A DNA stretch of 36,877 bases from a bacterium (GTDB lineage: Bacteria; Bdellovibrionota_C; UBA2361; SZUA-149; JAEUWB01), in NCBI GenBank assembly GCA_016786595.1, contig JAEUWB010000022.1:1-36877 (forward strand). Direction: 5' to 3'. This document shows, piece after piece, positions 1-21,786 of this stretch. The translations under genes were made by a program, and so were the position numbers. Position 1 is the stretch's first letter. Each line of letters begins with the position of its first letter. The notes beneath the pieces are model-generated. The model was not told the DNA's origin and did no database searches. It worked only from the letters and a program-made list of their open reading frames with translations.

Positions 1-1
1 A

Positions 2-247
2 GTAGCTTTGCCGCTGGCGATGGCCTTTGCAATTTCCTCCGGCGTAGCCCCACAGGCTGGGATTTACTGCGCAATTTTCGCTGGCTTTATTATCTCAGCG
101 CTGGGCGGTTCTAAAACGCAAATTGGTGGTCCGACTGGAGCTTTTGTCGTTGTTGTATCAGCAATTGTAGCTAAGCATGGCCTGGATGACAACTACGATG
201 TTGATGTTTTTGTTGACGATGGGGCAAACGATTTTAATGAAGCCTGA
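2..247 (+). pseudogene. SulP-family anion transporter, internal fragment (broken)
   Basis: The frame is open from the window edge and reads VALPLAMAFAISSG, then ALGGSKTQIGGPTGAF. These are hallmark segments of the N-terminal membrane domain of SulP sulfate/bicarbonate permeases. Family members run to about 500 residues or more, but here the similarity stops after KHGLD, near base 188, and an acidic unrelated tail leads to a stop. A shifted frame opens nearby (198-350, 50 residues, MLMFLLTMGQ...), with one membrane-like segment and a cysteine-rich end (CCASGEC). I do not recognise that piece, and it does not look like the missing SulP continuation. The gene is therefore a 3'-truncated relic, possibly fused to other debris. 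Its true start lies outside the window. Confidence 0.75.
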
Positions 248-2872: not shown

Positions 2873-2953
2873 GAAATTTACTTAGCCCGCTAAGAACCAG
2901 GATTCTTGCCCTTCATTTCCGAACCTAGCTGGCGCTCGTTAAATATCCCACGC

Positions 2954-3061
2954 TGGGGTGGAGTATCTGATGCCTCTAAAACCCTTGATTTTATTGGGTT
3001 TTATGAAATCGTGCATCCTTTTTGCATCCAATTTTGGGGTAATTCTGAAAGCTCCTGAAAT
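2954..3061. repeat. End repeat R1 (att-like core plus paired GCATCC sites)
   Basis: The block opens with TGGGGTGGAGTATCTGA and carries GCATCC at 3013 and 3024, 11 bp apart. It ends with a TCCTGAAA motif right at the stop of the 1143-residue gene. It aligns along its length with R2 (9152-9262) and at both ends with R3 (9976-10096). The opening resembles the CCA/acceptor end of the tRNA-His gene (TGGGGTGAGTGAT). I read it as an old left attachment end with integrase arm sites. Confidence 0.65.
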
Positions 3062-6000
3062 TTAAAGGTAACTGTTCATGCCAAATCTTAATAAAGCGTT
3101 CTTTAGCTTATTAGCAAGAGATTTCACTTTCGGATCTGAGCTTACTTCTCCAGCAACTATTAGTGGCTTTAAATTCCCATCTCGATATTCAATGACAATT
3201 CGTTGAACATCTCCCCCTTCAACAATGAGAAGAAGAGCCTCAAGCACTTCCAGTCGATACTGCTCGAAACCTTCAATCAAGACCTCAGATACTCTCATCA
3301 ACGGTTCAATCTGACCTGACGTTTTCTTTAACGTTAAGATGAGCCTATCAAGCATATCCTTACGTGGCAGGTATCCATCTACAACCCACCAACCGAACTC
3401 TTTAAGTTCCTGCACATCGCTTGAAGTAGACAAACGCCAATCCCAGAACTCTAAAAGACGATCAATGGGGGGAATATCACCTTGTGGCTCATCTGTATCT
3501 CGCTTTTGTAAAAACGTTGTGCCAACAAACGACACAATTCCAGCACGAGCAGACGAATCTTGCGTGTCAAAATACAATTGTAATTTCTGATCCGCTTGAG
3601 TTGTCCATCTAAAAAGGTATGCGACGGCTATTCTATCACCGATGTCGTGGACGACGTTATGACGATCTTTCCACGGAGGTGTAAACCTAGACAGTTTAGT
3701 TAAGAAATTATCTAAGCTCGGTTCCAGTTCAATATATACAGGTTTCCAAAACCGACCTCTAACGTACCCATCCCATGCCGCAAGTGCACATACGGAATCA
3801 TTGGAACTGAGAATCTCAATAATAATGGACTTTCCAGCTGAACGATCGAGATCATAGATCCAGGGTAAAAATTCCCCCGCAATGTACGACACCCAGAAAT
3901 CTGATTTGCCTCTTTGAATAATTTGCTTCGTTATTTGAGCTACATATTCTGATAGTTTTGTCGATTTATTTCGCTTCAACCACAATAGAAATGAAATACA
4001 AGCTCTATATCCCCAGCCTTGGGTTGTGTTTAAGGCGACATGCGAAGGTTCTGTATTATGTTCTTTGTAAAAATTTAAGTTTTCCTCTGATGGATCGGGA
4101 AATTGGCTGACGACTGAAAGAGCCGCCATCAGCTTAGGTAGTATTTCATCACTATATGGTAATAAGTTAAAACTAAAAATCGATTCAAAGAGTTCAGCTA
4201 TTGCCTGAAGAACCCCCGCCCATCCAACCGAAAGCACTTCGCGCTTAGAAAGTTCGGGGAGTGTATTGATATTTGCAGCCTCACAGATTTTTGAGGACAA
4301 CAAAATCATTGGAATTATATCAAATTTTTCCTTATTTCTGATTGCTTGCCTGACACCAGAAATGAAATGACAAAGGTAAGTAGGGTCAATTTTGGTGTCG
4401 AAGAACTTATCCGCGTGTTCGATGAATTTTATCGGATCTTGACTGACGACTTCGCCCAATGTTCTCGCTAGCCCAGCCATGGAATCGCCAAACCACTCCT
4501 TCTCTGGCTTCCAGGTCTTAAAATATTCCACTGCATCCTCGACCGAAGTGACTTTTAGTTGGTCTTGTGAAACTGGCGAGGTTGGTCCGCGCCAAGTAGT
4601 GGATACTTCGTCGTCATCAGAAATATCAGATGTGTCCTTTGGCTGAAATCTAATCAATCGATTTTTTTGATCGTCCGTGAGATGACGCCAAATTTTTCTG
4701 ATATATTTGGATTTCCAGTAATCGGCTACTTCTTGGTTGTCCTTGTAATCTGGATTACCATTTTCCACTTTGGCTAAAAATTCCGACCTTTCAGCTTCGA
4801 TCAATTCCGAAAAGATTTCTGGCAGTCTTTTCGAAATTTCTTTGCCGATCTTGATAGAATATAATGCATCACCCAATAGGAGTTTTTGCACTTCACCTTG
4901 CAACGATGTGCGATTGTCCATGACTACACACGCCCTGAGGCAGTCTCGTTCTTCATCTTCAGAAATAGAAGCTAGGAATGCATTAAGCTCTTGAATCAAG
5001 GGTTTTGTTCCTTCAGCTCTAGGACAGGAACAGTACTTTTTTATGCACAGCTCTAAGGTAGGCTGAATTAATTTCTCATGGGTATAAAGCTGAAAAGCTC
5101 TAATTCTTATTTCTTTGGAAGTTTCGTCATACTTTGTTTCACGTGCCTTAATAACCGCATCAAGCTTTCGTGTAAGTGCGTTAATAATGAAGCTCAAGTC
5201 GATCGTTGGTTGAACATTCTGAAGTTCATCCAAAACTTTACGAAGGTAGTACTCGTCCAAATATGGTCGACAACGTCCATCAGGATCGTCTAAGTCTTGA
5301 TCAAAATCTAAGAGTCCTTCTAAAAGAATGCCTGCATTCTTATATTGCCCTGAACGGACTAACAATTGCCAAAGCTCGACAGCTTCCATTGAAATCGTAT
5401 GAGCAATGTCAAACTGTAGCCACTTGTCTTTGACAAGCTTCTTAAGCATTGAAGCGACATCTAGCTTCTTTGCAATGGATTTTAGACACTCTAGTGTGTC
5501 GCGAAGCACCCAAGGATCTGAATTATTGGTAAAGGAGAATTCTGATATCACCTTAAAAACTTTATCTGGCACATCGTTCGCCACACGAATTAAATATCGT
5601 GAAGCTGCCCAGGCACATGAAGTGATTCGATCTTTTTCCCTAATTAATTGGGGAAGAGGCGCAAACCATCCAGCTTCAGCTAATGGTTCAATCCAGGTCG
5701 CATCTATTCTGTCCATAAAATAGTTGAATGATGCAGTCCACTGAAGAAGTACATCTAGTTTCCTTAATGCTTCTACAGACGGTTTTTCTTGCTTAATAAA
5801 CGCTTCAACCTTTGCAATTACAGATGACTGTTCCTCTATAATACCTGCTACTAGATCCTCTACTTGTTGAACTTTGTCATCCCATTCCTTTAGGACATCT
5901 CCAATAAGCCCTTTGCAGTGACATACATTTGTAAAGTAGCGCTGAATATCGGTGTATTTCTTTACAAAGGCATCTCTTCGCGCTTGATTGTTCCCCAATG

Positions 6001-6493
6001 GATCAATTTTATTTAAGACAGACTCAATTTTTTCTTTATTACTGGCTTCTTTGACTTCACTGTAGAGAAGCCAACATGCATACTTATATACAAAAGACTT
6101 ACTTAATCCTTGAATCTTCTCTAAAATTTCAAGCGAAATAATTCCCTTCCATTCAAGAGACTTTTCCTCACTATTAACAACAAATTTCGCGGCTAGTTCG
6201 TCTGGAACCTTTATCTCTGGAAATGATTCTTCAACGACAATTTTTTTCTCAACGTAAATATCCGTGCGTTTCCCCGGATAGAAAGCTTCTAGTAGCTCCC
6301 GAACTGCATGAGCTACTCCTATATACCAAAGCTCTTGCCTATTGGTTTTCGATTCGTAGCTGCACCACAGGTCAAAAAGCCCAACCAGATTATATCCCGA
6401 CCTTTTCTCAAAATCTGAAAGCAATTCCCGCAGCTTTCGCCCTCGTGGGCTTAAGGCTTCCTCCGTCGGTATCTTGGGCAATTCATCGGTCAT
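3062..6493 (-). CDS. Very large helical protein, unrecognised; candidate defence cargo
   Basis: This is an intact 1143-residue ORF with no signal peptide, no membrane segment and no Walker A, nuclease or methylase motif that I can find. It appears almost wholly alpha-helical, with many W/L-rich helix pairs resembling HEAT or ARM-type repeats. Recognisable stretches include NTTQGWGYRACISFLLWL and AAWDGYVRGRFW in the C-terminal third. An acidic linker (DTSDISDDDEV) divides the protein near residue 630. The start overlaps the stop of the truncated YgjP-like gene by ATGA, indicating translational coupling. The gene ends directly at repeat R1. Position equivalent to the SIR2-KAP cargo of the intact element suggests a phage-defence role, possibly as a sensor or scaffold. 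That is inference; no function is assigned. Confidence 0.7.
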   Translation of the reverse strand: MTDELPKIPTEEALSPRGRKLRELLSDFEKRSGYNLVGLFDLWCSYESKTNRQELWYIGVAHAVRELLEAFYPGKRTDIYVEKKIVVEESFPEIKVPDELAAKFVVNSEEKSLEWKGIISLEILEKIQGLSKSFVYKYACWLLYSEVKEASNKEKIESVLNKIDPLGNNQARRDAFVKKYTDIQRYFTNVCHCKGLIGDVLKEWDDKVQQVEDLVAGIIEEQSSVIAKVEAFIKQEKPSVEALRKLDVLLQWTASFNYFMDRIDATWIEPLAEAGWFAPLPQLIREKDRITSCAWAASRYLIRVANDVPDKVFKVISEFSFTNNSDPWVLRDTLECLKSIAKKLDVASMLKKLVKDKWLQFDIAHTISMEAVELWQLLVRSGQYKNAGILLEGLLDFDQDLDDPDGRCRPYLDEYYLRKVLDELQNVQPTIDLSFIINALTRKLDAVIKARETKYDETSKEIRIRAFQLYTHEKLIQPTLELCIKKYCSCPRAEGTKPLIQELNAFLASISEDEERDCLRACVVMDNRTSLQGEVQKLLLGDALYSIKIGKEISKRLPEIFSELIEAERSEFLAKVENGNPDYKDNQEVADYWKSKYIRKIWRHLTDDQKNRLIRFQPKDTSDISDDDEVSTTWRGPTSPVSQDQLKVTSVEDAVEYFKTWKPEKEWFGDSMAGLARTLGEVVSQDPIKFIEHADKFFDTKIDPTYLCHFISGVRQAIRNKEKFDIIPMILLSSKICEAANINTLPELSKREVLSVGWAGVLQAIAELFESIFSFNLLPYSDEILPKLMAALSVVSQFPDPSEENLNFYKEHNTEPSHVALNTTQGWGYRACISFLLWLKRNKSTKLSEYVAQITKQIIQRGKSDFWVSYIAGEFLPWIYDLDRSAGKSIIIEILSSNDSVCALAAWDGYVRGRFWKPVYIELEPSLDNFLTKLSRFTPPWKDRHNVVHDIGDRIAVAYLFRWTTQADQKLQLYFDTQDSSARAGIVSFVGTTFLQKRDTDEPQGDIPPIDRLLEFWDWRLSTSSDVQELKEFGWWVVDGYLPRKDMLDRLILTLKKTSGQIEPLMRVSEVLIEGFEQYRLEVLEALLLIVEGGDVQRIVIEYRDGNLKPLIVAGEVSSDPKVKSLANKLKNALLRFGMNSYL

Positions 6494-7128
6494 TGATATG
6501 CCCCCAACGACCGATTTAACTCAGCACGATAACTCCGCCACCTCGGCATCACGCGATCTAGGTGGGCGATAAAACGATCATTGTGCTTACGCTCAAGCAG
6601 ATGAACCAATTCATGAACGATCACATACTCAAGGCATCTGTCGTCTTTCTTGGATAATTCAAGATTGAAAAGAACTCGTTTGGTCTTAGGATTGCAAGAA
6701 CCCCACTTGGTTTTCATCTGACGAATAGACCAAGACTTTACTTGCACACCTAGCTGCTCTTCCCATTTACTTAAAATTGGCTCGATCCGATTCTTTAAGT
6801 CCCGCCGAACCCATTCGGTAAATACAAGCTGCTTATGGGATTTAGAGGTTCCTTTTTTCAGTAAAAGATTGATTCGGGATTTTCCTTGGATTGATACCTT
6901 TGAAGGTAATTTGTGATGCACGACATTTAAGCGGTAACGAATGCCCCGAAAAAGTACACTTTCGCCCGACACAAACTTAGGTGGGTTTTGCCGTTCTTGA
7001 TTCTCAAAGCTACGAATCTGTTTCTTTATCCAAGGTAGCCCTATAACCGTGCCAGCCTCTTTTGTAACTTCCAATAATCCCTCAGTTTTTAATAAGATCA
7101 CTATTTCGGTCTCGCTGCAAATTTGCAA
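6490..7128 (-). pseudogene. 5'-truncated copy of YgjP-like zinc metalloprotease
   Basis: Residues from about 31 onward match the intact copy at 13433-14158 with only about 13 differences in 182 positions. They include the zinc motif HELVHLLERKHNDRF. Before that, similarity ends sharply at about base 7038. The first 30 codons are unrelated, and the only available start is a TTG without a convincing ribosome site. The protein therefore lacks the N-terminal strand region of the family. Its stop overlaps the ATG of the 1143-residue gene (ATGA). It is probably the stump left when the rest of an older restriction operon was deleted, though a shortened protein could still be made. Confidence 0.75.
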
Positions 7129-9069: not shown

Positions 9070-9113
9070 GAGTCATCAAGTTTGGTACTTCCTGAAAATA
9101 TCAAGAAACCTCA

Positions 9114-9135
9114 CACAGGGTTCAAGCCCCATCAC
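9114..9135 (+). repeat. 22-bp direct repeat, copy 1, resembling a tRNA T-arm/acceptor
   Basis: These 22 bases recur identically at 9938-9959. The core GGGTTCAAGCCCCATCACTC (9118-9137) differs from the tRNA-His T-arm and acceptor strand by one base, but lies in the opposite orientation to that gene. The two copies bracket R2 and the BrnT/BrnA pair, like the ends of a small tandem insertion. Confidence 0.7.
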
Positions 9136-9151
9136 TCGTAGTAGTCTACTC

Positions 9152-9262
9152 TGGGGTGGAGTATCTGAGCCTCTCAGAACTCGCATTTTTATTGGGTTTC
9201 GTGAAATCGTGCAGCCTTTTTGCGCCCAATTTGGAGGTAATTTTGAAATTTCTTGAAATATC
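9152..9262. repeat. End repeat R2 (degenerate arm sites)
   Basis: It opens with TGGGGTGGAGTATCTGA, identical to R1, and follows R1 through ATTGGGTTT, TGAAATCGTGCA and a TTGAAATTTC-type end. The paired sites have decayed to GCAGCC and GCGCCC but keep the 11-bp spacing (9211 and 9222). It lies between the host reductase gene and BrnT/BrnA, and probably represents the left end of another, mostly lost insertion. Confidence 0.65.
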
Positions 9263-9281
9263 AACATAATGATAGTATTTA
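9253..9281 (+). promoter_or_regulatory. Possible brnTA promoter
   Basis: TTGAAA (9253-9258) is followed after 17 bases by TATTTA (9276-9281), ten bases before the brnT ATG. BrnA usually represses its own promoter, and the A/T-rich direct TATT repeats here could be its site. The call rests only on spacing. Confidence 0.3.
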
Positions 9282-9291
9282 AGGTATATTA

Positions 9292-9570
9292 ATGGTATAT
9301 TATAAGTATGAATTTGAATTCGACCTCAAGAAGAGTGCGTCTAATAGGAGGAAACACGGGATCGACTTTGAGGAGGCTCAGGGGCTCTGGATCGATCCGC
9401 ACCTATTGGAGATTGAGGCGAGATCGGCAGATGAGCCACGCTTTCTAATGATTGGAAAGATTGGCTCAAAACATTGGAGTGCGGTCGTTACCTTTCGAAA
9501 TGACAAGATACGAATTATTTCGGTTAGACGATCTAGAAAAGAAGAGGTGGAATTATATGAAGAAAGTTAA
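9292..9570 (+). CDS. brnT: BrnT-family toxin (ribonuclease)
   Basis: This 92-residue protein has the BrnT layout: EFEFDLKKSASNRRKHGIDFEEAQGLW, then RFLMIGKIGSKHWSAVVTF and the basic C-terminal IRIISVRRSRKEEVELYEE. BrnT toxins fold like RelE and cleave RNA, and BrnA neutralises them. The reading frame is intact, and the ATG has AAGG eight bases upstream. It overlaps brnA by 14 bases in the usual toxin-first order. The pair lies between two copies of a 22-bp repeat, outside the main element's proposed left end, so it may stabilise an older neighbouring insertion. Confidence 0.88.
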   Translation: MVYYKYEFEFDLKKSASNRRKHGIDFEEAQGLWIDPHLLEIEARSADEPRFLMIGKIGSKHWSAVVTFRNDKIRIISVRRSRKEEVELYEES

Positions 9571-9802: not shown

Positions 9803-9860
9803 GGTACGAACTGACATTTCAGGAAATTTCGAATGCCTCCCTGAAGTGTCAATTTCGCTC

Positions 9861-9873
9861 TGGGGTGAGTGAT
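9861..9873 (-). other. Candidate left attachment core (exact tRNA-His 3' end)
   Basis: TGGGGTGAGTGAT is identical, and in the same orientation, to 29044-29056. There it encodes the CCA, discriminator and 3' acceptor strand of tRNA-His. A 13-bp match is unlikely by chance in this window. It is the expected direct-repeat relation for an element inserted in a tRNA 3' end, although the match is short. A TTTCAGGAAATTTC motif, inverted relative to the R-repeat ends, lies just to the left. Confidence 0.5.
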
Positions 9874-9937
9874 AACGTGTTTTATCGCTTCGCTCAAAAC
9901 TCTGGGCTCGCAGCTTTCCTCGTGCTCGCTTCGCTCG

Positions 9938-9959: not shown

Positions 9960-9975
9960 ACTAGATATTTTATTC

Positions 9976-10096
9976 TGGGGTGGAGTATTTGAAGAGGGTT
10001 AACTTACTGAAATCGGTACATTTTCGGTGCTCCATGCATCCTTTTTGCATCCAACTTTTTCGAAAGTTTTGAAATGTCCTGAAAGCTTCTGAAATG
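9976..10096. repeat. End repeat R3 at left end of intact element
   Basis: It starts TGGGGTGGAGTATTTGA and has GCATCC at 10036 and 10047, again 11 bp apart, followed by TGAAATGTCCTGAAA. It ends 14 bases before the KAP gene stop. The middle differs from R1 and R2. At 10008-10025 it carries TGAAATCGGTACATTTTC, which recurs exactly at 24107-24124 inside the element. I interpret it as the current left arm region of attachment. Confidence 0.65.
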
Positions 10097-10109: not shown

Positions 10110-12455
10110 CTAATATAGCTCTTTAATTTCGGACCACACATAACTTTCAGAATCTCCAAAAACACTTTCCTTAGGATTTGGATTCTTCTTCGAAAGTTCA
10201 TACATATCGATTATCAGCTTTTCACGAGCATCCTTCGTATTGTAGTTAGCTAAACTTTTGTCGATTACATCTGTACTGAAATACTCTTGGAGCGATGGAA
10301 TTGAAATTCGATATCCTATTTCGCGACGAGAAGAATTGCTTATAGATTGTGAAAATCCAACGATAAATTTAATGGCATTTTGTGGATTTTGAATAACCTC
10401 GTCCAACCAATTCCTTTGAATCTGCTTATCACCGAATTCCGACCAAAACTTCAGGGTCAATGAAATTCTTGTACTAACCCTCAACGTTTTACCTTGTGCA
10501 GCATCATTTATGCGAGAAGCAAGAGTCTTTGATAGTTCAATAATATTATCATCGCTCTGGAAGAGTACCCCCAAATCTCCCCAACCATCCTTTTTTAAGC
10601 TCTTGATAATGTGGTCCACATAGGTAGGAATCACAAAGTCAGTTGCTTTTTCGAATACCCTCTTTAATCTCTGAGTTCGTTCGTTCTCATCCTTCATTCT
10701 ACTCATCATATAGAGGATGATTCTCGTGCATGTCATGCGAGGGTCATCACCGAACAATCCCAACCCGCTTGGTGGCAACAAATCGCCAATATTAATTAGG
10801 CTAACAGCAATTGATTCAAAGTGCTCAACTGGCACTTCATTCTTATAATTTTCTAATGCATCAAGAAGAAATTTAAGTCGATTTCGTTTTACAAATTTAT
10901 TGACGTTCTTCTCCGTCTTTGTAATGTCCTTCAAATCGTCGATAAAAGAATGAATCTCGGAATCCGTCAGTTGATCTGAAGAGAAGACAAGCGTGAAATA
11001 TCTATCGAAATAGTCCTCATGACATGCCCGAGTTTGTTGATACCAACTTTCCATCGTACCCTGGTACGAACCATATCCACCGAGTATTCCAGCCACCTCA
11101 GGAAAAATGCCTTTCACTAAGACTGAGATAGCATCGAGGTTTGCTTTTGAAACCTTCGATAGTAACTCTTCAACTACCTTCTTTCTCTCTCCCTTCTCAT
11201 CATCAAAGCGAATGCGAGTTGTCGTTTTGATGATGTCATCCTTGTAGTACGGTAGGCTGCTATATAATTGAGGCTCGTGAACACGAATGGCTTCTAAAGC
11301 AATAAGATCAACAGGGTCGAGTTCAAAGACTTTCTTACCTTCGAACATTCCAAAATAAAAACTTAGTGTAGAAAGATATCTGTTTACATCCCGTAAGGTC
11401 GAAAAAAGAGGACGAATTCCGTCATGAAAAATTAATCCCCACCTGTCCTTATTAAATTTCTTTTCAGCTCCAGCTGACTTCAAAATTTTGTCTAGACCCT
11501 CGAATAGAACTTTCTCGAACAATTCTCTTGGTGCTTCAGGAATCTGAAAGGAAACTTGTACAATCTTTTTTAGATAATCCTTGCCACGTCCTTCTTCTAG
11601 CTCGCTCGGAAGGAACGACTTCAATGCGTCTTCAACATAGCCCTGATCGTATAAAAGTAAATATACAAGGTTGGGGAAGTCCGCATTACATTTGATCAAT
11701 CTGCAAAGAAGCCCTAGTTCATCGGAAGTTAATCGATCTATCTCATCAATACTAATAATGACGGGCTTTTTTAGTTGTCCCATCAGAGAAGTCAGCTCTT
11801 CCTTTAATTCGAGTATGCTCTTCTTGCTAGCACTGACACGCGCCTCTAACAACTTTATATAGTACTCAAAGAATTGATCCGCCGTGGAAAATAGCCAGAT
11901 AAAGAGGGAGATACTCAAACATGCAATAGCAAACCATGGCGAAACCCACTCGTAGTTGAGCGAGAAAAGGGCAAGAACAGAGAGTGCGAAAGCCAACCCT
12001 TTACGTATTGCCTTGAGTGGGATCAGCTTGAGAAAAAATTCACCTAGCTTTAATCGTGCCTGATAAACACGGAGTGTATTGATAAGTCTAACAGTACTTT
12101 TTGAACTATCTGTCTTCCCAATTGCACGACCTAGTTCTTCAAAAAAGGCTTCATCTAAAATATGATCGCCCGATACTGTCCACGGAATAAATTCATGAAA
12201 AACGGGTCGCTCATTTTCATCGAGCTTGGAAAGTTCTTCCCGAATTAAGTTCTTAACCGAACTTTTTCCACTGCCCCATTTCCCCGAAAGACTGATAACT
12301 AGTGAATCTCGTCCATCCCAATTTGCTAGGCATTGCGCAATACTAGAAGCAAAACCCGTCCGATTTAGCCGATCATGTTTCGAATCTTGGATCGGTCTAT
12401 CTGCATTTAGGTCCACAGCCTGTGATGGTCGCTTCTGTCCCATTTTACCACCCAA
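10110..12455 (-). CDS. KAP-family P-loop NTPase, membrane-anchored; SIR2 partner
   Basis: This 781-residue protein has Walker A GKWGSGKSS at residues 58-66 and Walker B PVIISIDEID at 231-240. Between them lie two membrane segments, at about 153-168 and 173-190. Membrane helices inserted inside the P-loop domain are a hallmark of KAP NTPases, several of which occur in phage-defence loci. The remaining 500 residues are helical with no domain I recognise. Its start overlaps the end of the SIR2-like gene by 11 bases, so the two are translated together. It is the last gene of the restriction operon and stops just before R3. A plausible role is a membrane-bound ATP-dependent switch that controls the SIR2 enzyme; this is inference. 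Confidence 0.85.
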   Translation of the reverse strand: MGGKMGQKRPSQAVDLNADRPIQDSKHDRLNRTGFASSIAQCLANWDGRDSLVISLSGKWGSGKSSVKNLIREELSKLDENERPVFHEFIPWTVSGDHILDEAFFEELGRAIGKTDSSKSTVRLINTLRVYQARLKLGEFFLKLIPLKAIRKGLAFALSVLALFSLNYEWVSPWFAIACLSISLFIWLFSTADQFFEYYIKLLEARVSASKKSILELKEELTSLMGQLKKPVIISIDEIDRLTSDELGLLCRLIKCNADFPNLVYLLLYDQGYVEDALKSFLPSELEEGRGKDYLKKIVQVSFQIPEAPRELFEKVLFEGLDKILKSAGAEKKFNKDRWGLIFHDGIRPLFSTLRDVNRYLSTLSFYFGMFEGKKVFELDPVDLIALEAIRVHEPQLYSSLPYYKDDIIKTTTRIRFDDEKGERKKVVEELLSKVSKANLDAISVLVKGIFPEVAGILGGYGSYQGTMESWYQQTRACHEDYFDRYFTLVFSSDQLTDSEIHSFIDDLKDITKTEKNVNKFVKRNRLKFLLDALENYKNEVPVEHFESIAVSLINIGDLLPPSGLGLFGDDPRMTCTRIILYMMSRMKDENERTQRLKRVFEKATDFVIPTYVDHIIKSLKKDGWGDLGVLFQSDDNIIELSKTLASRINDAAQGKTLRVSTRISLTLKFWSEFGDKQIQRNWLDEVIQNPQNAIKFIVGFSQSISNSSRREIGYRISIPSLQEYFSTDVIDKSLANYNTKDAREKLIIDMYELSKKNPNPKESVFGDSESYVWSEIKELY

Positions 12456-13389
12456 GCTCCCCTAGAAAGTCTGGAATGACTGTCTGTGCCTTTCCGAGAA
12501 ATATCCGTCCCTCGCTCTCCTTCCTCAGTTCTTCTATTCGTTTGGGGTCAAGTTTAAAGGCAGTTCCATAATACTTGTCCTCACCATCCCATGGTTTATT
12601 CCTATCAAACCCATTGATTCGTAGACGATCAAGATTCGTGTCGTCGTAACCAAAGCCAAGAAAAATGACTTTTTTAGCCTTAGCAATTACAGCTTGTGCA
12701 ACTTGCATTTCCTTCCCGTAGTCGTGCTCCAATTCCGAAATTACTCGGATACCTTCTGAACTCTGTAGGATCTGCTCGGCAGTGGCATTGGAGCTATATT
12801 CTCGTTTGAAACCATTCTGCTTATCAGTATCAAGATAACCAAGCCTACCGTGGACGTGCAGTACTTGCGTTGTATCAATCAAACTCTCAGCACGTTTTGG
12901 AAAATTGCTAAAGATTAGGTCCGTAAGAAACTTATCGATTGAGCGATCATAGTTGAAAGTGACAAAGACAGGACCATACTGGTTCTGCTCAATTGCTTCG
13001 ATGATTTTTGTACGAAGTAACAGGTACCAGTTGTCACTTCGCCTCTGAAGTAAATTTGGCTCCTCATATTTGATTAGCTCTTGTGCAATTGCAGCACGTG
13101 CAATTTTAACAAATTCTTCACGACGAGATAGAAATTCATCTATTGTGGGTGCTACTGTCTTTCTGAATTGCTCATGAAAGGTCTTGATCTCATCTCCACT
13201 GAACCCCATGCCCTCAAGCATTTTGAATGAATCGCTGCTAGGATCTCTGGTGTTGTTAAGAATGTTATCACTTAGTTGATTGCCTAAAGGATAGCCCAGG
13301 TGATAACTGGCTCCTGCACCGAGGACAAAGACGGTATTGTAACCTCTCCAACCAATATCAAAATGATAGTTTTTGCCCGATTCCCACAT
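12445..13389 (-). CDS. SIR2-like protein, probable NADase effector
   Basis: This 314-residue protein has a SIR2-type Rossmann fold: VFVLGAGASYHLGYPLG (residues 20-36), VFVTFNYDRS (141-150) and VLHVHGRLG (176-184). A late VIFLGFGYDDTNL (241-253) completes it. Asn146 and His180 align with the catalytic Asn/His pair of defence SIR2 enzymes that destroy NAD. No zinc-binding cysteine quartet of true deacetylases is seen. It follows the YgjP-like gene by 43 bases and overlaps the KAP gene by 11. The AGGA ribosome site lies almost against the ATG, unusually close, which could keep expression low. An abortive-infection NADase function is inferred from family and context. Confidence 0.85.
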   Translation of the reverse strand: MWESGKNYHFDIGWRGYNTVFVLGAGASYHLGYPLGNQLSDNILNNTRDPSSDSFKMLEGMGFSGDEIKTFHEQFRKTVAPTIDEFLSRREEFVKIARAAIAQELIKYEEPNLLQRRSDNWYLLLRTKIIEAIEQNQYGPVFVTFNYDRSIDKFLTDLIFSNFPKRAESLIDTTQVLHVHGRLGYLDTDKQNGFKREYSSNATAEQILQSSEGIRVISELEHDYGKEMQVAQAVIAKAKKVIFLGFGYDDTNLDRLRINGFDRNKPWDGEDKYYGTAFKLDPKRIEELRKESEGRIFLGKAQTVIPDFLGELGW

Positions 13390-13432: not shown

Positions 13433-14158
13433 TTAATAAACCTCATACGCCCCCAACGACCGATTCAACTCAGCACGATAACTTCGCCACTTGGGCATCA
13501 CACGATCTAGGTGGGCGATAAAACGATCATTGTGCTTACGCTCAAGGAGATGAACCAATTCATGAACGATCACATACTCAAGGCATCTGTCGTCTTTCTT
13601 GGCTAATTCAAGATTGAAAAGAACTCGTTTGGTCTTAGGATTGCAAGAACCCCACTTGGTTTTCATCTGGCGAATAGACCAAGCTTTTACTTGCACACCT
13701 AGTTGCTCTTCCCATTTACTTAATAGTGGCTCGATCCGATTCCTTAAGTCCTGTCGAACCCATTCGGTGAATAACAACTGCTTGTGCGATTTGGAGGCAC
13801 CCTTTTTCAGGAACAAATTGATTCTGGATTTCCCCTGAATTGCTACCGTTGAAGGTAATTTGTGATGCACAACGTTCAAGCGGTAGCGAACGCCCCGAAA
13901 AAGTACACTTTCGCCCGAAACAAACTTAGGTGGGTTTTGGCGTTCTTGATTCTCAAAGCTACGGATCTGCTTCTTAATCCAAGGTAGCTTTCTAATGATA
14001 AGTAAACGTACTGCAGTGTCGCGTGTAGTGCTTGGCACGGCAACTCTTAGTCGCCCTTCAGGTGGGTGCACACTTAGATGTATATTCTTGATGGCTTTTC
14101 TAATCACCTCAACTGAATATCCACCAATTTTTAAGTGCCTAGTTCCTCTAATACTCAT
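13433..14158 (-). CDS. YgjP-like (DUF45/WLM) zinc metalloprotease of the restriction operon
   Basis: This 241-residue protein has the complete family layout. An N-terminal strand region is followed by the central SIRQMKTKWGSC and FNLELAK, then the zinc site HELVHLLERKHNDRF at about 199-213. It overlaps the end of hsdR by 11 bases. Genes of this family often accompany type I restriction operons, where their function is not settled; regulated proteolysis of HsdR is one idea. A 3' portion of this gene is duplicated at 6490-7038 next to a different cargo gene. Confidence 0.88.
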   Translation of the reverse strand: MSIRGTRHLKIGGYSVEVIRKAIKNIHLSVHPPEGRLRVAVPSTTRDTAVRLLIIRKLPWIKKQIRSFENQERQNPPKFVSGESVLFRGVRYRLNVVHHKLPSTVAIQGKSRINLFLKKGASKSHKQLLFTEWVRQDLRNRIEPLLSKWEEQLGVQVKAWSIRQMKTKWGSCNPKTKRVLFNLELAKKDDRCLEYVIVHELVHLLERKHNDRFIAHLDRVMPKWRSYRAELNRSLGAYEVY

Positions 14159-17100
14159 ACTGCTTTTTAACTACTTTAAAGATTTTCTCTGCATTTTCCT
14201 CGTCGGTAACGTGACGATTGATAGCTGCCTTTACTTCTCTTTCCTTTATTAAGTTATCTCGCCAATCCGCTTTTCTTGTTGCCATTACCTCTTCATGAAC
14301 TGCCAAAGCTAAACCAGCATCGTTATCTAAGTTATCGTAGAGTGCTCGCTTTGCGGGTGAGTCCAAAGAGGATGGATAGGTTCCTGCTGATTCGGGATTC
14401 TTTGCTCTCTTGGCAAGTTCACAAATCTTACGGAGATACTCCTCATAGCTTAACACTTCTGCACGTCTTGCCTTGATGACTTCATCAAGTAGAACAGACA
14501 TCCTCTCGTAATACTTTGGATTGGTCGGCTTCTCATCGACAATTAGTTTTCGGACGTTATTCTCAATAGTTTCCGCTACTGCTTGTTTATCCTTTCGAAT
14601 ACCCTTTGGAAGATTATCAATGGCACCGACACCACTTTTAACGATCATTTCTACGAGTGTTAAATCATCAAATGCCGAAATCACTTCTCCATCTCCTGCA
14701 CCCACGTACGCATCAATTAAATGCCTCATAGCTGGCTCATACGCTTTAAGATCGATGTAATCACCACTGGCAAGTTTGACCTCAGCACGTACAGTCTCGT
14801 AGTGCTTAACGTCGGCTATGATTTCCTCAGTTTGTTTTGCTGAGTATCCGACCTCAGTCATTTCATTAGCGATCTCTGCGTAAGCACGAATCAAGGAAGA
14901 AGTTAGCTTGTATAGGGTAACTCTCTTCTGCTCGTTCTCTTCGACTTGATTTTCATCCCCTAGATTGTCGCCACAGAAATAATCGAGGTAGTTTTTAGTT
15001 TCATACGGTGGAACAACAGGTTCACAGAGGATCTTAATGGACTCCAAGGCATTATCGAGTCGTTCCCGTGCCTTCTCCAATCTGTCATTAAGTAAACCCT
15101 TTACGTCATCTGGATCGTAATCATCGAAAGCTTCTGATGTGTAATCATTGATCGATCTTTCCAGGCTCTTAAAGAGATCCTTATAATCGATCACATATCC
15201 ATATTCTTTGTCTTCACCGTCTAATCGATTGACCCGACAGATAGCCTGAAAAAGACCGTGATCCTGCATTTTCTTATCAATATAGAGATACGTTGCAGGT
15301 GGTGCATCAAATCCAGTTAGAAGCTTATCTACCACGATAAGAAGCTTCATCTGTGCGGGTTCATCGGTAAACTTCTTCTTTACTTCGTCTTCAAATACGT
15401 CTGGATCTTTTCCGCCCAGCATCTTGTTGTAAATTTCATATTGGCGAAGTCGTTCGGTTAATTCTTCTTCGCCTGTACTCTCTCCCTTGATGTCGTTCTT
15501 GGTGGGCTTGTAAGAGGTAACGATAGCGCACTTGGTAAAGCCATTATTAATAAACAGTTCGTAGTATTTACACGCTTGATAGATGCTACCCGAAACCAAC
15601 ATGGCGTTGCCTCGACCATTTTGAAGTCGATCTTTTGTCGCCATGTCGAACATGATCTCGCCAACGATCTTACTGAGCCTGTCTTGAGAACTTAGGACTT
15701 TGTTTAAAGTTCCCCAGCGTTTTTTAAGTTCGGTTTTTGCAAAATCAGTTAGTCCTTTGGTCTTTGCCTCGAACCATTGATCGATCTTTGCAGGTGAAGT
15801 TATATGCTGATCGATTTTCCGTGCTTCATACCTAAGATCAAGCACGACCTTATCGGCAACGGCTTCATCAAATTTGTAGGTATCAATATATGGTCCAAAT
15901 ACTTCGATGCTCTTTTGCTTATCCTTTCGTAGTAGTGGCGTTCCAGTAAAACCGATCAACATTGCATGAGGTAGAAGCGTGGTCATCGCCTTATGAAGCT
16001 TGCCCGACTGCGTCCGATGACACTCATCTACAAGAACATAGATGTCACCCTTTGCTTTGAAGTCTTTGGGTAGACTATTGATCAGTTCTTCAAGGTAAGA
16101 GTCGTAATCAGGCTCTTCATTTCTTCCGAACTTATGGATTAACGAGCAAAGCAAAAATGGTGTTGGTGCATTCAATTTCTCTACGAGATCCCGCCCACTT
16201 TTGGTTCTGTAGATAGTTTCACTTACACCTGTGAATACCTTTTCAATCTGCTTATCTAGTTCATCACGATCTGTGATCACCAACACACGTGAATCAGGAA
16301 CATTCTCCCTAATCCACTTGGCAAGCCATATCATCGTAAGGCTCTTACCACTCCCTTGACTGTGCCAGATGATTCCGCCTTCACGACGGCGAACACTTTC
16401 CTGTGCTGCTCGAACGCCAAAATATTGGTGATGTCGTGGAAGCTTTTTAATGCCCCGATCAAAGACAATGAAGTCGTGGATAATTTCAAGAATACGCATC
16501 TTGTCACATAGAAGTGCGAGATGCCGATCTAATGAAGTATCCGATTCACCACGCTCTTTCCAGGTCAGGAAATACTTCTCTGGGGTTTCGATAGTTCCAT
16601 ATCTCAATCCTTCAGTATCGTTGCCAGCCATTACAAGCTGAATCGTTGCAAAGAATGGCTTTATAAAGATTGATTTTTGATTATCAAGATTTTGGCGAAT
16701 GCCCTCAGATACAGATATTGTGCTTCGCTTTAATTCTAAAATCGCGATTGCGATCCCGTTTACATAAAGAACAACATCAGGGCGTTTTGTGCTCTCTCCT
16801 TTGACTGTAACTTCCTCTGCGATTGCAAAGTCATTTGCTTCTGGATTGTCCCAGTCAATGAGATGTACCGTCTTTTTAATATCACCAGCATCTTCCTTGA
16901 GAGGAATGCCGTAACGTAAAAGCCCATAAACGTCTTTATTGAGGTCATAAAGTGTCTTGCTTTGATTGCCAGCTACCTTCTGTAATTCTGCAATCGCTCG
17001 GTTTACAATTACTGGGGTGTGCTTCTGATTCTTAGATATGAATGATCTCAATAATTCAGGTTCTATTGGGCTGTTTCTTTCACCATCATGCCAATCACCA

Positions 17101-17183
17101 AGGTAGGTATAATCCAGCGTGTTTTGAAAGAGTTTAACGACTCTTTGCTGTGTCCTTTTTTCTCTTTGTCCTACCTTGCTCAT
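14148..17183 (-). CDS. hsdR: Type I restriction enzyme subunit HsdR
   Basis: This 1011-residue protein is of normal length. The N-terminal PD-(D/E)xK nuclease is present, with Asp136 in RPDVVLY and Glu150/Lys152 in ILELKRS. The superfamily 2 translocase has Walker A SQGSGKS (275-281), DECH (386-389) and TGTP (413-416). The C-terminal helical region contacts the methylase core. HsdR with HsdM and HsdS cuts DNA that lacks host methylation after ATP-driven translocation. It begins one base after the NucS-like gene stop and overlaps the YgjP-like gene by 11 bases. All key motifs are intact, so it is predicted to be active. Confidence 0.96.
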   Translation of the reverse strand: MSKVGQREKRTQQRVVKLFQNTLDYTYLGDWHDGERNSPIEPELLRSFISKNQKHTPVIVNRAIAELQKVAGNQSKTLYDLNKDVYGLLRYGIPLKEDAGDIKKTVHLIDWDNPEANDFAIAEEVTVKGESTKRPDVVLYVNGIAIAILELKRSTISVSEGIRQNLDNQKSIFIKPFFATIQLVMAGNDTEGLRYGTIETPEKYFLTWKERGESDTSLDRHLALLCDKMRILEIIHDFIVFDRGIKKLPRHHQYFGVRAAQESVRRREGGIIWHSQGSGKSLTMIWLAKWIRENVPDSRVLVITDRDELDKQIEKVFTGVSETIYRTKSGRDLVEKLNAPTPFLLCSLIHKFGRNEEPDYDSYLEELINSLPKDFKAKGDIYVLVDECHRTQSGKLHKAMTTLLPHAMLIGFTGTPLLRKDKQKSIEVFGPYIDTYKFDEAVADKVVLDLRYEARKIDQHITSPAKIDQWFEAKTKGLTDFAKTELKKRWGTLNKVLSSQDRLSKIVGEIMFDMATKDRLQNGRGNAMLVSGSIYQACKYYELFINNGFTKCAIVTSYKPTKNDIKGESTGEEELTERLRQYEIYNKMLGGKDPDVFEDEVKKKFTDEPAQMKLLIVVDKLLTGFDAPPATYLYIDKKMQDHGLFQAICRVNRLDGEDKEYGYVIDYKDLFKSLERSINDYTSEAFDDYDPDDVKGLLNDRLEKARERLDNALESIKILCEPVVPPYETKNYLDYFCGDNLGDENQVEENEQKRVTLYKLTSSLIRAYAEIANEMTEVGYSAKQTEEIIADVKHYETVRAEVKLASGDYIDLKAYEPAMRHLIDAYVGAGDGEVISAFDDLTLVEMIVKSGVGAIDNLPKGIRKDKQAVAETIENNVRKLIVDEKPTNPKYYERMSVLLDEVIKARRAEVLSYEEYLRKICELAKRAKNPESAGTYPSSLDSPAKRALYDNLDNDAGLALAVHEEVMATRKADWRDNLIKEREVKAAINRHVTDEENAEKIFKVVKKQYEY

Positions 17184-17184
17184 A

Positions 17185-18111
17185 TCAAACCTTCACCAAT
17201 TTGAAGCTAATCTGATAACGGTAAAAGGATATGGATGAGACAGCCATTAAAGCCCGTCTGATTCGTTGATCATCTTCTAACGCTATAATTACTCCAGATA
17301 CTTGTTGCCCATCTTCTGCCAACTCTTCTTGTACATAGCCCATGTAACGAAGGGTCTGTCCAACAACGACATCACTTGCACGACCTTTCTTTAATTCCAC
17401 TACAAGAAGCTTTTTCTTGTCTTTGCTGATAGCAAGAATATCAACTGGTCCTGTGTCAGTGGGATACTGTTGACCAACGCACTCACCATCTTCTTCATAG
17501 ATGTCGTAAGTCTTTCCTAATTCTGTTTGTGACCAGTTTTGCACCAAGAAATCTTCAAGATGCTTCTCCATTGCAAATGCAGATGGATCTTCTACCGTTT
17601 CATCGGTTGAGATAAGCGAAGTGGCAGATACTCCACCAAGTAGCCTTTCAATTTCTTCACCATAGGTTGAGATATTACAAACTGTTCCTATTGAACCTGC
17701 AGAGTTCTTGAGAGGAGTGCTTAAATCGCTTCTGTCTATGGTCTGATTAAACCATCGGACTGCACGACGATGAGGCAGAATCTCGCCTGGATGATATTCA
17801 TAATTCCCAGTCACTTCACCAACTCTGTATCTGCCACTTCCATCTGGGCATAATACGAGGTCGCCGATCTTAATTCCCTTTGCTACCGTCCAAAGCATTC
17901 CACAGGCTAGTCCAGCACCGATCTTGGTTTTATCGGGATGGGCTTCCAAAAAGATTGGAATGAATTCCTGGTTAAACTCACGCCACTCATCTGGAAGTTT
18001 ATTTGAAAGATTTTGAGTGATCCCAAAATCAGCACCAATGAAACTACCCGCGAGACATGCCTCCGCATGTGCACTCTTTTTACCCAACATTACGCGGTAG
18101 TAGTTCTTCAT
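17185..18111 (-). CDS. NucS/DUF91-like PD-(D/E)xK nuclease with N-terminal EVE-like domain
   Basis: This 308-residue protein has a C-terminal nuclease domain with Glu182 (MEKHLEDFLVQNW), Asp224 (GPVDILA), Glu239 and Lys241 (VVELKKGRASD) and Gln252 (VVGQTLRY). This is the catalytic pattern of NucS/EndoMS and related DUF91 enzymes. The N-terminal 150 residues, including GDLVLCPDGSGRYRVGEV and HRRAVRW, resemble a PUA/EVE-type module that can read modified bases, though this is tentative. It lies between hsdS and hsdR, with gaps of 7 bases and 1 base, and is clearly part of the operon. It may add restriction of modified or otherwise escaping DNA to the type I system. Confidence 0.8.
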   Translation of the reverse strand: MKNYYRVMLGKKSAHAEACLAGSFIGADFGITQNLSNKLPDEWREFNQEFIPIFLEAHPDKTKIGAGLACGMLWTVAKGIKIGDLVLCPDGSGRYRVGEVTGNYEYHPGEILPHRRAVRWFNQTIDRSDLSTPLKNSAGSIGTVCNISTYGEEIERLLGGVSATSLISTDETVEDPSAFAMEKHLEDFLVQNWSQTELGKTYDIYEEDGECVGQQYPTDTGPVDILAISKDKKKLLVVELKKGRASDVVVGQTLRYMGYVQEELAEDGQQVSGVIIALEDDQRIRRALMAVSSISFYRYQISFKLVKV

Positions 18112-18118
18112 TGTTGCC

Positions 18119-19384
18119 TCATATTAATCTGATTTTTCCAGTTAGAAGGTTTTGCATCATGCCTTGTTTCAAGGACTTATATTTTGCAACCTGCTGTACA
18201 AGAGCGTTGATTTCTTGCGTCATAGATTGAATTGCCGAAGCAATTGCAACTTGTTCCTGATACTCAGGATAAGGAACAACTAGTTCTTTTACGTCACGAC
18301 TATTAATTGCAGGGTAGTTCGAACCAGATAGCAATAAATTTATCTGGCGATTCAATGAATCAGCAAAGAAATGTTGGAAAATATAGGGGGCATGAGTGCC
18401 CGTCTCGTCGCACCTAAGAACGGAAAAACCTGTCGAACAAATAGTATTTTGAACCTCACCATCGACATAGTAATGCGACATAAGATTCGGGCGTACGGTA
18501 GCAATGAGGATGTCATTCCTGCGTACAATACGACGAGCACGAGAAGGTGCAGTTTTAAATTCATGGTCTTGTAATGAGAGAAGAATTCCCCGATCGATTG
18601 CCTCCAGTGAAATATATTTGAATTTATAGGAGCTGGGTGTTTTGCTTTGTAAATTTTCAGGATCAACTTGAACGAGATCCCCAATAGACCGCTCGTCCCA
18701 TTTTCCACTAAACCCAGGCAATCGCCTCTTCCCAGTAAGCAACTCCTGCATCGCACCTTGTTTGATGTTGCGTTTCTTTTCGATCAGCTTTTCAAGGGAA
18801 GATATCAGGGCGTCCGTGTCGGAGAGAGCAGTAGCGATAGATTGTTGCTCTGATACATTCTGTGGTACGGGTAGCTTAAAATTGGCTACTGCCTGTTGCG
18901 ACAACGTAGGTATTGCACCACCAACTATAAATGATGCAATTTGTTTTTGGATAATTCCAAAACCCATCATGTATCCTAAAAAGTCACCGCTTATCTTGAA
19001 TTTCTTTAGGACAACAACCTGTGGATTTACGGTGGCTCTTTGAGGAAGATTTCGAACGATTGCAGTTTTACCGAAGGTCGACCCCGTCTTAACCAGGAGT
19101 ATATCGCCGTTGTTAACTTTTATTTCAGGCGATTCCTCGTATTTAAACCACGAAAGATATGTGCAACCAGCAAAATCCATCTGTCCGTCTTTTATATTCG
19201 AGGGGCTAATTGTAATCGCACCTTCACCCTCTCTGACGATGTCGCTAACTGTATAGCCTCTAAAGCCGATTCGACCGTTTATTTCGCAGACATCCCCAAT
19301 ACACCTTATCACCCAGTCATGAGGAATTAGACCGATTTCAGTTTCTTGATGGCTACCCGAAGGAAACTTTTCTGCTACTCCCAT
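18119..19384 (-). CDS. hsdS: Type I restriction specificity subunit HsdS
   Basis: This 421-residue protein has two target-recognition domains, at about residues 25-150 and 225-350, each followed by a conserved helical spacer. These spacers are EQQSIATALSDTDALISSLEKL...QGAMQELLTGKRRLPGF, and EQVAIASAIQSM...LKQGMMQNLLTGKIRLI. The repeated spacers set the distance between the two half-sites that HsdS reads. The gene overlaps hsdM by 10 bases. The target sequence cannot be read from the protein by eye. I see no inverted partial hsdS copies in the window, so phase-variable shuffling is not indicated. Confidence 0.95.
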   Translation of the reverse strand: MGVAEKFPSGSHQETEIGLIPHDWVIRCIGDVCEINGRIGFRGYTVSDIVREGEGAITISPSNIKDGQMDFAGCTYLSWFKYEESPEIKVNNGDILLVKTGSTFGKTAIVRNLPQRATVNPQVVVLKKFKISGDFLGYMMGFGIIQKQIASFIVGGAIPTLSQQAVANFKLPVPQNVSEQQSIATALSDTDALISSLEKLIEKKRNIKQGAMQELLTGKRRLPGFSGKWDERSIGDLVQVDPENLQSKTPSSYKFKYISLEAIDRGILLSLQDHEFKTAPSRARRIVRRNDILIATVRPNLMSHYYVDGEVQNTICSTGFSVLRCDETGTHAPYIFQHFFADSLNRQINLLLSGSNYPAINSRDVKELVVPYPEYQEQVAIASAIQSMTQEINALVQQVAKYKSLKQGMMQNLLTGKIRLI

Positions 19385-21786
19385 GCAAACCCCATATTTT
19401 GCAAGTGAGTACCAACTTTCTGCGACAGTAGTGTAACTTCCGAGGTAATTTCCGACAGCGTCGTATCGTACCTTTGAGCAAGCTCACTAGTCCGTGTTGT
19501 AAGTCTCTGTGAGGTTCGATCTAGTTCTGACTGAATGGCTTGTTGTAGTTGAGCTATCCACTTCTCGTCGACAACTAGGTGCTTAATTTCATCTACCGTG
19601 AGCCTTGGGTATTTTGACAGAACCTTGTCATTTAATTTTGTTGTTGCTTCTTTAATCTGTTTAGTAAGTTCACCTTCTTTGTTAAGTAACGCCAAACACG
19701 ACTCCAAAGCGTCACGCTCATCCTTGAACTCAGGTCTCTTCTTAATCTCGCCAATCCGTTTAGAAACATTCGCTTTACTGATCTTCCCATTGTCGCCAAC
19801 GGCTTCAGCTAGTATTCCTTCATCACCACCATGTTCTTCCTGCATTTCTTCAAACTGTCCCGTGATCTCATCACGAGCCATTTCAAGATTGTCGATAGCC
19901 GTCTTTTCTACAGAAAAGTACTTCGCGATAACCAATTCTTTAGGAATCAATTCGCAGGTGTAATCAACTGTCTGACCTTTCTTATTTGTCACTGCAGTTA
20001 ACTCAGCCTTCCAACCATCTTCTGCGACGATATACAGATCGTCTTTCATGACGTTCAGCCAATACGTCATCAAGTGTTGGTAGACATCGTATTGATCGAT
20101 GAGTGGAATACCACTGAATGCAGTAAGAATTGCTTCTGAAATTTGATGAATGACTTCTTTTGGCTTACATCCAGCTTTAAGCTGCTTTAGAAGGGCGCTT
20201 TGCTCTATAGCCCATTTTGCAAAGGTGGATTTAATCTTCGTCCCAAATTCAACGAATTCTGGATGTGTATAAATCGTGGCTTTTATCTCGTCTTTTTCAA
20301 CTTTTAAATCACAATAGCCGTCACGATTTCCTTTGGTAAAAAGTGAACTTCGTAAAGTTGGACAAACATTCCAGTAGTTACTTAAAGCATCTATATCACG
20401 AAGTGGAATTCCACCTTTTAAGTGAGCTTCGATGTCTTGGATGTCCTCTTCGTCTTGACTGTCGATGTAGCGTGGAATGTTGAGATTAAACTCATTCTTC
20501 TCCTCAATCTCTTTTATTGAAACAAGTCTGGAATACTTGGGAACTTCTATCTGCTTGTTGAAGACATCAACAATTTTGTGAATGTCCTGATCACGAAGAC
20601 GATTTTTATTTCCATCTTTAACAAAGCCCTTACCAGCATCGATCATGAAGATGCCTTTTCGACTTTCAGCATTCTCTTTGTCGATAACAATGATACAAGC
20701 TGGAATACCAGTTCCATAAAACAGGTTTGCTGGCAATGCGATGATGCCTTTGATGTATCCGCGTCTAATTAAATTGGTTCGGATCTTTGCTTCGGCACCA
20801 CCTCTAAAGAGCACACCATGAGGTAGAATGATTGCTGCTTTGCCTCTGCTCTTTAATGATCGAAGAATATGGAGCAAGAAAGCATAATCGCCATTCTTTG
20901 CAGGGGGAACGCCATAGCCATCAAATCTTCCGTAAACATCAGCCTTCTCATTTGCAGTTTCAACACCATCACTCCAGGACTTACTTGAGAACGGTGGATT
21001 GGCTACGGCAAAATCAAAAGTCTTTAACCCATGCCCATCTTTCCAAAATGGGGCTGCTAACGTGTTACCTTGCTGGATATCTGCTGTTGGATTGTTATGC
21101 AGAATCATATTCATGCGAGCCAAACCGCGAGTTGCTACATCATTTTCCTGCCCGTAGATTGTTAATCCTCGCGATGATTCATCTGCAGCTTTCAACAAAA
21201 GAGATCCGCTTCCGCATGTCGGATCGTAGATAGTTTGGTTTTGAGTTGTAGCATCCTGAATGCCGATCACCTTTGCTAAAATTCGCGAAACTTCTGCAGG
21301 TGTATAGAACTGTCCTTTGCTCTTTCCAGATTCTGTCGCGAAGTGTCGCATCAGATATTCATAGGCATCACCTAGAATATCGTCGCCATCTGCTCGGTTA
21401 TTTGCAAAGTCTAAAGTCTTGAAGATAGCAACAAGCTCCGAAAGCTTATCAACCATCTCTTTTCCTTTTCCTAGCTTGTCGGAGTCGGCAAAATCAGCAA
21501 CATCGATCACGCCCTTGAGATCGTTTGCTTCTGCTAGTTTAGAAATGATTTGATTGATTCCATCCCCGATATCTTTCTTGCCATTAAGAGCAAGCATATC
21601 CTGGAAACTTCCGCCTTTAGGAACTTGGATAGGGGCAGATTTGTTTCCAGCGTATTTGTCAGATACATATTTAACGAACAACAACACTAAAACATAGTCT
21701 TTGTACTGTGAGGCATCCATTCCCCCGCGAAGCTTGTCGCAACTTTTCCAGAGGGAGCTGTAGAGTTCACTTTTCTTAATCGCCAT
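19375..21786 (-). CDS. hsdM: Type I restriction methyltransferase HsdM
   Basis: This 803-residue N6-adenine methylase has an N-terminal HsdM_N helical domain (LWKSCDKLRGGMDASQYKDYV), the AdoMet-binding motif DPTCGSGSLL (188-197) and catalytic NPPF (263-266). The C-terminal 300 residues are a charged helical extension found in the longer HsdM subfamily. With HsdS it methylates the host target, and with HsdR it forms the restriction complex. It starts 25 bases after the HTH gene stop and overlaps hsdS by 10 bases. All motifs are intact. Confidence 0.96.
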   Translation of the reverse strand: MAIKKSELYSSLWKSCDKLRGGMDASQYKDYVLVLLFVKYVSDKYAGNKSAPIQVPKGGSFQDMLALNGKKDIGDGINQIISKLAEANDLKGVIDVADFADSDKLGKGKEMVDKLSELVAIFKTLDFANNRADGDDILGDAYEYLMRHFATESGKSKGQFYTPAEVSRILAKVIGIQDATTQNQTIYDPTCGSGSLLLKAADESSRGLTIYGQENDVATRGLARMNMILHNNPTADIQQGNTLAAPFWKDGHGLKTFDFAVANPPFSSKSWSDGVETANEKADVYGRFDGYGVPPAKNGDYAFLLHILRSLKSRGKAAIILPHGVLFRGGAEAKIRTNLIRRGYIKGIIALPANLFYGTGIPACIIVIDKENAESRKGIFMIDAGKGFVKDGNKNRLRDQDIHKIVDVFNKQIEVPKYSRLVSIKEIEEKNEFNLNIPRYIDSQDEEDIQDIEAHLKGGIPLRDIDALSNYWNVCPTLRSSLFTKGNRDGYCDLKVEKDEIKATIYTHPEFVEFGTKIKSTFAKWAIEQSALLKQLKAGCKPKEVIHQISEAILTAFSGIPLIDQYDVYQHLMTYWLNVMKDDLYIVAEDGWKAELTAVTNKKGQTVDYTCELIPKELVIAKYFSVEKTAIDNLEMARDEITGQFEEMQEEHGGDEGILAEAVGDNGKISKANVSKRIGEIKKRPEFKDERDALESCLALLNKEGELTKQIKEATTKLNDKVLSKYPRLTVDEIKHLVVDEKWIAQLQQAIQSELDRTSQRLTTRTSELAQRYDTTLSEITSEVTLLSQKVGTHLQNMGFAWE

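Follow-up and report, generated by a model that had tools for sequence, protein, structure and literature searches.

In B. subtilis, DSR2 forms a SIR2-MID-CTD tetramer that is activated by a phage tail tube protein; the tail tube protein is bound by the C-terminal domain, which signals via the middle domain to the N-terminal SIR2 (PMC10981675). The open-licence literature that we found covers DSR2 and mentions DSR1 (defense-associated sirtuin 1), a bacterial antiphage protein with an NAD-destroying SIR2 domain, for which PADLOC has the model PDLC04166. A different kind of precedent is PrrC, an anticodon nuclease that is embedded in a type IC operon (EcoprrI), sequestered in the enzyme complex and freed on T4 infection (PMC3874165), and that has been proposed as a second line of defence. 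A further point of comparison is pP_pnuc_1 (Pfam PF18165), a predicted pPIWI-associating nuclease.

Here we analyzed a gene for a 1143-residue protein in the window, by which we mean the whole stretch of 36,877 nucleotides under study. The protein is a member of a clade that lacks SIR2, stands apart and has an N-terminal module of its own. It shares with DSR1 a helical sensor that is homologous over ~900 residues, as well as the order of the parts, output domain then sensor. Judged by its sequence it is nevertheless not a DSR1, since it has no SIR2 domain, another helical module being found there, and falls outside the SIR2 group of the sensor tree, in a separate group that is often linked to restriction-modification (RM) genes. 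DSR2 is a working analogy; in both proteins an N-terminal output domain is followed by a large helical sensor, but ours is without SIR2, and the likeness considered here is one of architecture. Like PrrC, the gene is an accessory gene of an RM operon, here a relic in which it overlaps a YgjP-like gene, although PrrC has another architecture and no homology between the two was seen. The N-terminal module and pP_pnuc_1 are collinear helical domains with an R-E and an H position in register. They differ in that the module is fused to a DSR1-type sensor, and the window protein alone gave no match to the Pfam pP_pnuc_1 model up to E=10.

Table 1. Positions of the gene, its parts and its surroundings in the window, and related loci (L numbers) elsewhere
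Feature	Position	Strand	Remark
1143-aa gene	3062..6493	-	ATG start; N-terminal helical module and DSR1-type alpha-solenoid sensor
N-terminal helical module	5777..6493	-	residues 1-239; SIR2 position of DSR1; distant relative of Pfam PF18165 pP_pnuc_1
R65 codon	6299..6301	-	Arg kept in 21/22 modules
H192 codon	5918..5920	-	His kept in 22/22 modules
DSR1-type helical sensor region	3065..5776	-	residues 240-1143
PADLOC Dsr1 (PDLC04166) match	3566..4630	-	residues 622-976; profile positions 715-1056; E=1.9e-16
ELKEFGWW motif	3386..3409	-	invariant in the five closest sequences aligned
YgjP-like metallopeptidase gene, 5'-truncated	6490..7128	-	type I RM operon relic; ATGA overlap with downstream gene
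Element-end repeat	2950..3071	.	abuts stop codon of 1143-aa gene
Element-end repeat, second copy	9148..9269	.	beside BrnT/BrnA-like pair
Element-end repeat, third copy	9975..10090	.	abuts KAP stop
SIR2 (12445-13389) and PifA-like KAP NTPase (10110-12455)	10110..13389	-	cargo at equivalent position of sister operon
YgjP-like gene, intact	13433..14158	-	sister RM operon
Sister type I RM operon	14148..21786	-	hsdM, hsdS, PDC-S02/NucS-like gene, hsdR
Type I neighbours			window relic; L026 hsdM, YhcG (by eye), hsdS, AAA_15; L027 hsdR, split hsdM, hsdS; L056 hsdS
Type II neighbours			L029, methylase and REase
IIG/HKD-SNF2 neighbours			L031, L032, L033
DISARM drmA/drmB neighbours			L063
Split DSR1 locus L066	7050-10774
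Split DSR1 locus L067	7160-10929
Split DSR1 locus L068	7085-10901
Split DSR1 locus L075	441-4258
Split DSR1 locus L089	7689-11934
Split DSR1 locus L090	8456-12570

A DSR1-type sensor half in an uninterrupted gene

The original prediction, made from the letters of the DNA, had pointed to a long intact reading frame, and there is indeed no internal stop across its 1143 codons on the minus strand. Such a frame is not a product of chance, since 200 shuffles of the region yielded no open stretch longer than 179 codons. The gene shows a clear codon-position bias, and among the genes compared its codon usage is nearest to that of KAP (r=0.88). The predicted ATGA overlap with a protease gene of a restriction operon was also seen, the start (context CATATCAATGACC) overlapping the stop of the 5'-truncated copy of YgjP.

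Pfam and NCBIfam gave no named family for the protein; a match to Pfam IL31 (E 0.065, below the cut-off) was dismissed. In line with the expected lack of a recognisable catalytic motif, neither a Walker A, a SIR2 motif nor a catalytic domain of Pfam or NCBIfam was found. Over its C-terminal three quarters the protein shows homology to the sensor half of DSR1. Relatives were present on genome contigs from Magasanikbacteria (1165 aa) and Nomurabacteria (1156 aa), and as C-terminal parts from Planctomycetota and Zixibacteria; they matched Dsr1 down to E 5.7e-57, and for those of full length the alignment does not start before profile position 292, past SIR2. This was further supported by a search profile built from five sequences, none with SIR2, which recovered SIR2-bearing DSR1s as well as split ones (E 1e-34 to 1e-51). 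The same profile found relatives in 2 of 46 genomes of the gene's own phylum (this genome counted), in 9 of 380 from the phylum of the Nomurabacteria genome and in 16 of 392 from that of the Planctomycetota genome, and a wider profile found them in 11 of 132 from the phylum to which the Zixibacteria genome belongs. No homologues were detected in plasmids or phages by tblastn with the 1143-aa protein, none of four family members matched viral contigs, and sequence searches of the PDB gave no relative.

The sensor had been likened to the helical halves of large SIR2 or STAND defence proteins. Its homology to DSR1 upholds the SIR2 side of this comparison, even though SIR2 itself is absent from the protein (no match to the SIR2 models of Pfam, NCBIfam or PADLOC, no GAGxS and no TxNxD). 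The STAND side falls away, as a STAND/Avs P-loop NTPase core was sought and neither an NTPase family match nor a Walker A was present. A structure-based search had been proposed as well; with the full-length model (mean pLDDT 64.8, N-terminus below 50, five sequences), Foldseek returned only generic HEAT/importin-type solenoids and no DSR among the 50 matches listed, a result that with so weak a model speaks neither for nor against a DSR fold, and the kinship to DSR1 was seen by profile instead.

The N-terminal module and the two sensor clades

The sensor is found with two different output regions. SIR2 is fused to it at five loci (L064, L070, L091, L092 and L093), and at the split loci of Table 1 it is a separate gene adjoining the sensor gene, mostly with a few-base overlap; at L066-L068 this separate SIR2 protein covers Dsr1 positions ~5-300, with E 1e-53 to 1e-58. 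The helical module is fused to the sensor in the window, L002, L003, L026, L027, L033, L055, L056, L063 and more, and is the preceding gene in L029, L031 and L059. SIR2 and the module occurred together in none of the loci examined. In a maximum-likelihood tree of 34 sensors (ten SIR2-bearing rows, 22 module rows and two others) the SIR2-bearing rows lie on one side of a supported branch (95/91), with the window and the other SIR2-less rows opposite; the window row has a long branch (1.89), and its placement inside its clade is unsure. The module, ~200 residues in length, takes the SIR2 position in 22 of the 24 members of the SIR2-less group, fused or as a preceding gene.

The simplest reading of this pattern is one ancient exchange of the output domain, with repeated fusion and fission on both sides. 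It suggests that one sensor scaffold serves two alternative output domains, each fused or encoded separately, and that this sensor predates the SIR2 effector, after which the family is named, and has found wider use. A search that insists on SIR2 would overlook the SIR2-less half of the family. In the six split DSR1s the SIR2 protein has ~300-340 aa and the sensor ~940-1070 aa. Among the module-bearing loci, L057 (7101-11630) and L062 (966-5456), both from one genome (G680), encode proteins of ~1500 aa with ~390 extra N-terminal residues, winged-helix-like by eye, and the module and sensor gene of L087 (4676-8038) is interrupted by stops in mid-sensor.

The claim that no effector is attached to the sensor is probably wrong, as a module of residues 1 to ~239 sits in the effector position. 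This module may be an effector because it replaces SIR2 across the clade, keeps an Arg/His pair and is kin to a predicted nuclease family. In the first 13 modules R65 and H192 were the only invariant columns, at 12-22% identity to the window. When nine more were added the next-best column after Arg and His reached 19/22, and the module of L062 was without the conserved Arg. Matches to Pfam pP_pnuc_1 were obtained for L026 (E 4.8e-6, above the cut-off) and L035 (6.7e-4, below it). When a profile of the module was compared by hhalign with three pP_pnuc_1 proteins, the two aligned collinearly from end to end (95.8%, E 7.3e-9), and of the hits of a module-only profile in 392 genomes, nine were linked to a sensor and the only other one was an independent pP_pnuc_1 protein (E 6e-7). 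The module may thus be a nuclease by its kinship to pP_pnuc_1, itself a predicted nuclease, and the near-invariant Arg/His pair could be structural instead of catalytic.

A model of the module (L003 first, three sequences) had a pLDDT of 58.8 and four main helices, and gave no significant fold match. In this model the conserved His is predicted between the third and fourth main helices, just past the third, a position that we take to resemble the HEPN topology. The window and L003 also have R185-X6-H192, an HEPN-like RX4-6H, the Arg of which is not generally kept in other modules. A profile comparison of the module with a DUF4145 alignment of two sequences was negative, and we therefore treat HEPN kinship as a lead only.

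Restriction neighbourhoods and possible roles of the protein

The truncated YgjP-like gene lies 6 kb from the intact type I operon of the window, and is 91.7% identical in nucleotides over 545 bp to the intact YgjP of that operon. The homology begins abruptly at ~codon 57 of the gene, and hence the 5' part of YgjP and the upstream hsdM, hsdS and hsdR are missing. The operon had been predicted to be lost, and a genome-wide search found no second hsdR beyond the intact operon copy. On plasmids YgjP is the last gene of type I operons, behind hsdR, and the gap between hsdS and hsdR holds varied genes. Three such plasmid loci carry their cargo between hsdM/hsdS and hsdR, namely XisH/XisI and Uma2 (L111), two DUF262 genes (L113), and DUF4433 with a macro domain (L115). 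We found nothing in the open-licence literature on YgjP together with type I restriction and defence.

A survey of the neighbours of homologues, as had been proposed, revealed restriction, DISARM or HKD-SNF2/methylase operons at 9 of the 24 SIR2-less loci, the window relic counted (Table 1), and overlapping frames in L027, L056, L026 and L033. No RM gene was near the other 15 within the contig DNA examined, several contigs being short. At a threshold of E 1e-10, none of 78 neighbours of ten SIR2-type loci matched a type I, II, IIG or DISARM model, and a few matched MADS, PD-T4-6, AriA or PbeA. The enrichment of RM genes in the SIR2-less clade (9/24 vs 0/10) is only suggestive, because the neighbours of the two clades were scanned differently and several contigs are short. 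Together with the sensor homology, the nine loci bear out the view of a candidate defence gene; the contexts were not mainly housekeeping ones, and no clear match to a non-defence family appeared. A pP_pnuc_1 protein of 371 aa without a DSR sensor was likewise found in L102 (5987-14829), behind hsdR-hsdM-hsdS of a type I RM operon and together with an AAA ATPase gene (hsdS named by PADLOC, hsdR and hsdM by eye).

We favour, with moderate confidence, the explanation that the gene represents an ancient SIR2-less sister clade of DSR1 and encodes an RM-associated, DSR1-like alarm with a non-SIR2 output module that acts in second-line defence; the module is best read as the effector or adaptor of this alarm protein. 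Placement in RM operons, as for PrrC and EcoprrI, suggests the second-line role, and by analogy the protein plausibly works like a DSR. When a phage evades or blocks the RM system, the solenoid would bind a phage protein directly, as DSR2 does, or would sense the loss of RM integrity. Rearrangement of the solenoid would then turn on the N-terminal module, which would harm the cell or phage nucleic acid as an abortive second line. Possible, but in our view doubtful, is the further proposal that the module is itself catalytic, a helical nuclease whose active site is made up of Arg and His, and the clade a hitherto unreported family of defence proteins, whose DSR-type sensor leads to nucleic-acid damage and backs up many unrelated RM systems. 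If true, nucleic-acid damage would take the place of NAD loss behind a DSR-type sensor. Because the sensor is linked to RM operons of several kinds unrelated to one another, a single gene is enough to test whether it acts as a backup alarm when RM fails. The window copy might still be active, or it may be unexpressed, given the loss of its RM operon and the truncated YgjP.

The same losses would fit a decaying passenger of a decayed element, without present function in this genome, and promoter-like sites were no commoner than in shuffles. We consider this unlikely in view of the intact 1143 codons, the retained R65, H192 and ELKEFGWW and the codon-position bias; a relative close enough to gauge selection was not found. 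That these genes recur within different types of RM operon, with frames that overlap, can also be accounted for by a PrrC-style guard, which the restriction complex holds inactive, the solenoid docking on Hsd or Drm instead of detecting a phage structural protein, until a phage anti-restriction protein frees it. Such a role has its precedent in the type IC operon of PrrC (PMC3874165), and the varied plasmid cargo of the YgjP-bearing type I family agrees with it. It is made unlikely by the 15 loci without a nearby RM gene in the contig DNA examined, by RM types so unrelated that no single docking partner is common to them, by the SIR2-type relatives, which have the same sensor and none of these RM models among 78 neighbours, and by the lack of an ABC-type NTPase such as PrrC has.

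Alternatively, the protein could be regulatory or a scaffold, in which the module is a dimerisation or adaptor domain and the sensor controls the transcription or the assembly of an effector that is encoded nearby and acts in trans (nuclease, AAA-TOPRIM, helicase). The six loci that encode SIR2 separately beside the sensor show that sensor and output can be split. In addition, L026 has an AAA_15/PtuA-AriA-like gene overlapping the start, a NucS-like nuclease is nearby in L003, and L002 (9539-13036) has a LexA-type DNA-binding domain (E 4e-15) ahead of module and sensor. This LexA-type fusion looks like a variant of the protein that is tied to SOS or to an operator. We nevertheless regard a scaffold as improbable, because no partner gene is constant across the clade, several members stand alone, and the module occupies the effector position with its Arg/His pair kept at low identity.

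Probable sibling elements in the window

The intact operon reads hsdM-hsdS-PDC-S02-hsdR-YgjP-SIR2-KAP. Its SIR2 has the motifs GAGAS, TFNYD and HVHG, and its KAP matches PADLOC PifA (E 1.7e-72); the two genes close a type I RM operon and form a possible two-gene system. A pairing of the DSR1-type sensor in trans with this SIR2 was judged unlikely, since no Dsr1 model matches the SIR2 and queries with DSR1-type SIR2 do not retrieve it. The 1143-aa gene had been placed where the other element carries SIR2-KAP, and this equivalence was confirmed, as the stop at 3062 and the KAP stop at 10110 abut copies of one repeat. This element-end repeat is ~130 bp long, and its 18-mer core is present in 3 copies vs 0.03 expected. 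The simplest reading is that two sibling elements close with different cargo, one with the 1143-aa gene and the other with SIR2-KAP, and that the older one has been reduced to its end, the 1143-aa gene and about three quarters of YgjP.

Three element ends stand in a row, which suggests serial insertion. A BrnT/BrnA-like pair (9292-9802, named by eye) lies in the region 9110-9992, framed by direct repeats and element-end repeats, and the direct repeats resemble a tRNA 3' end. At the left edge of the window (1-246) the 3' fragment of a SulP-type transporter frame was read by eye.
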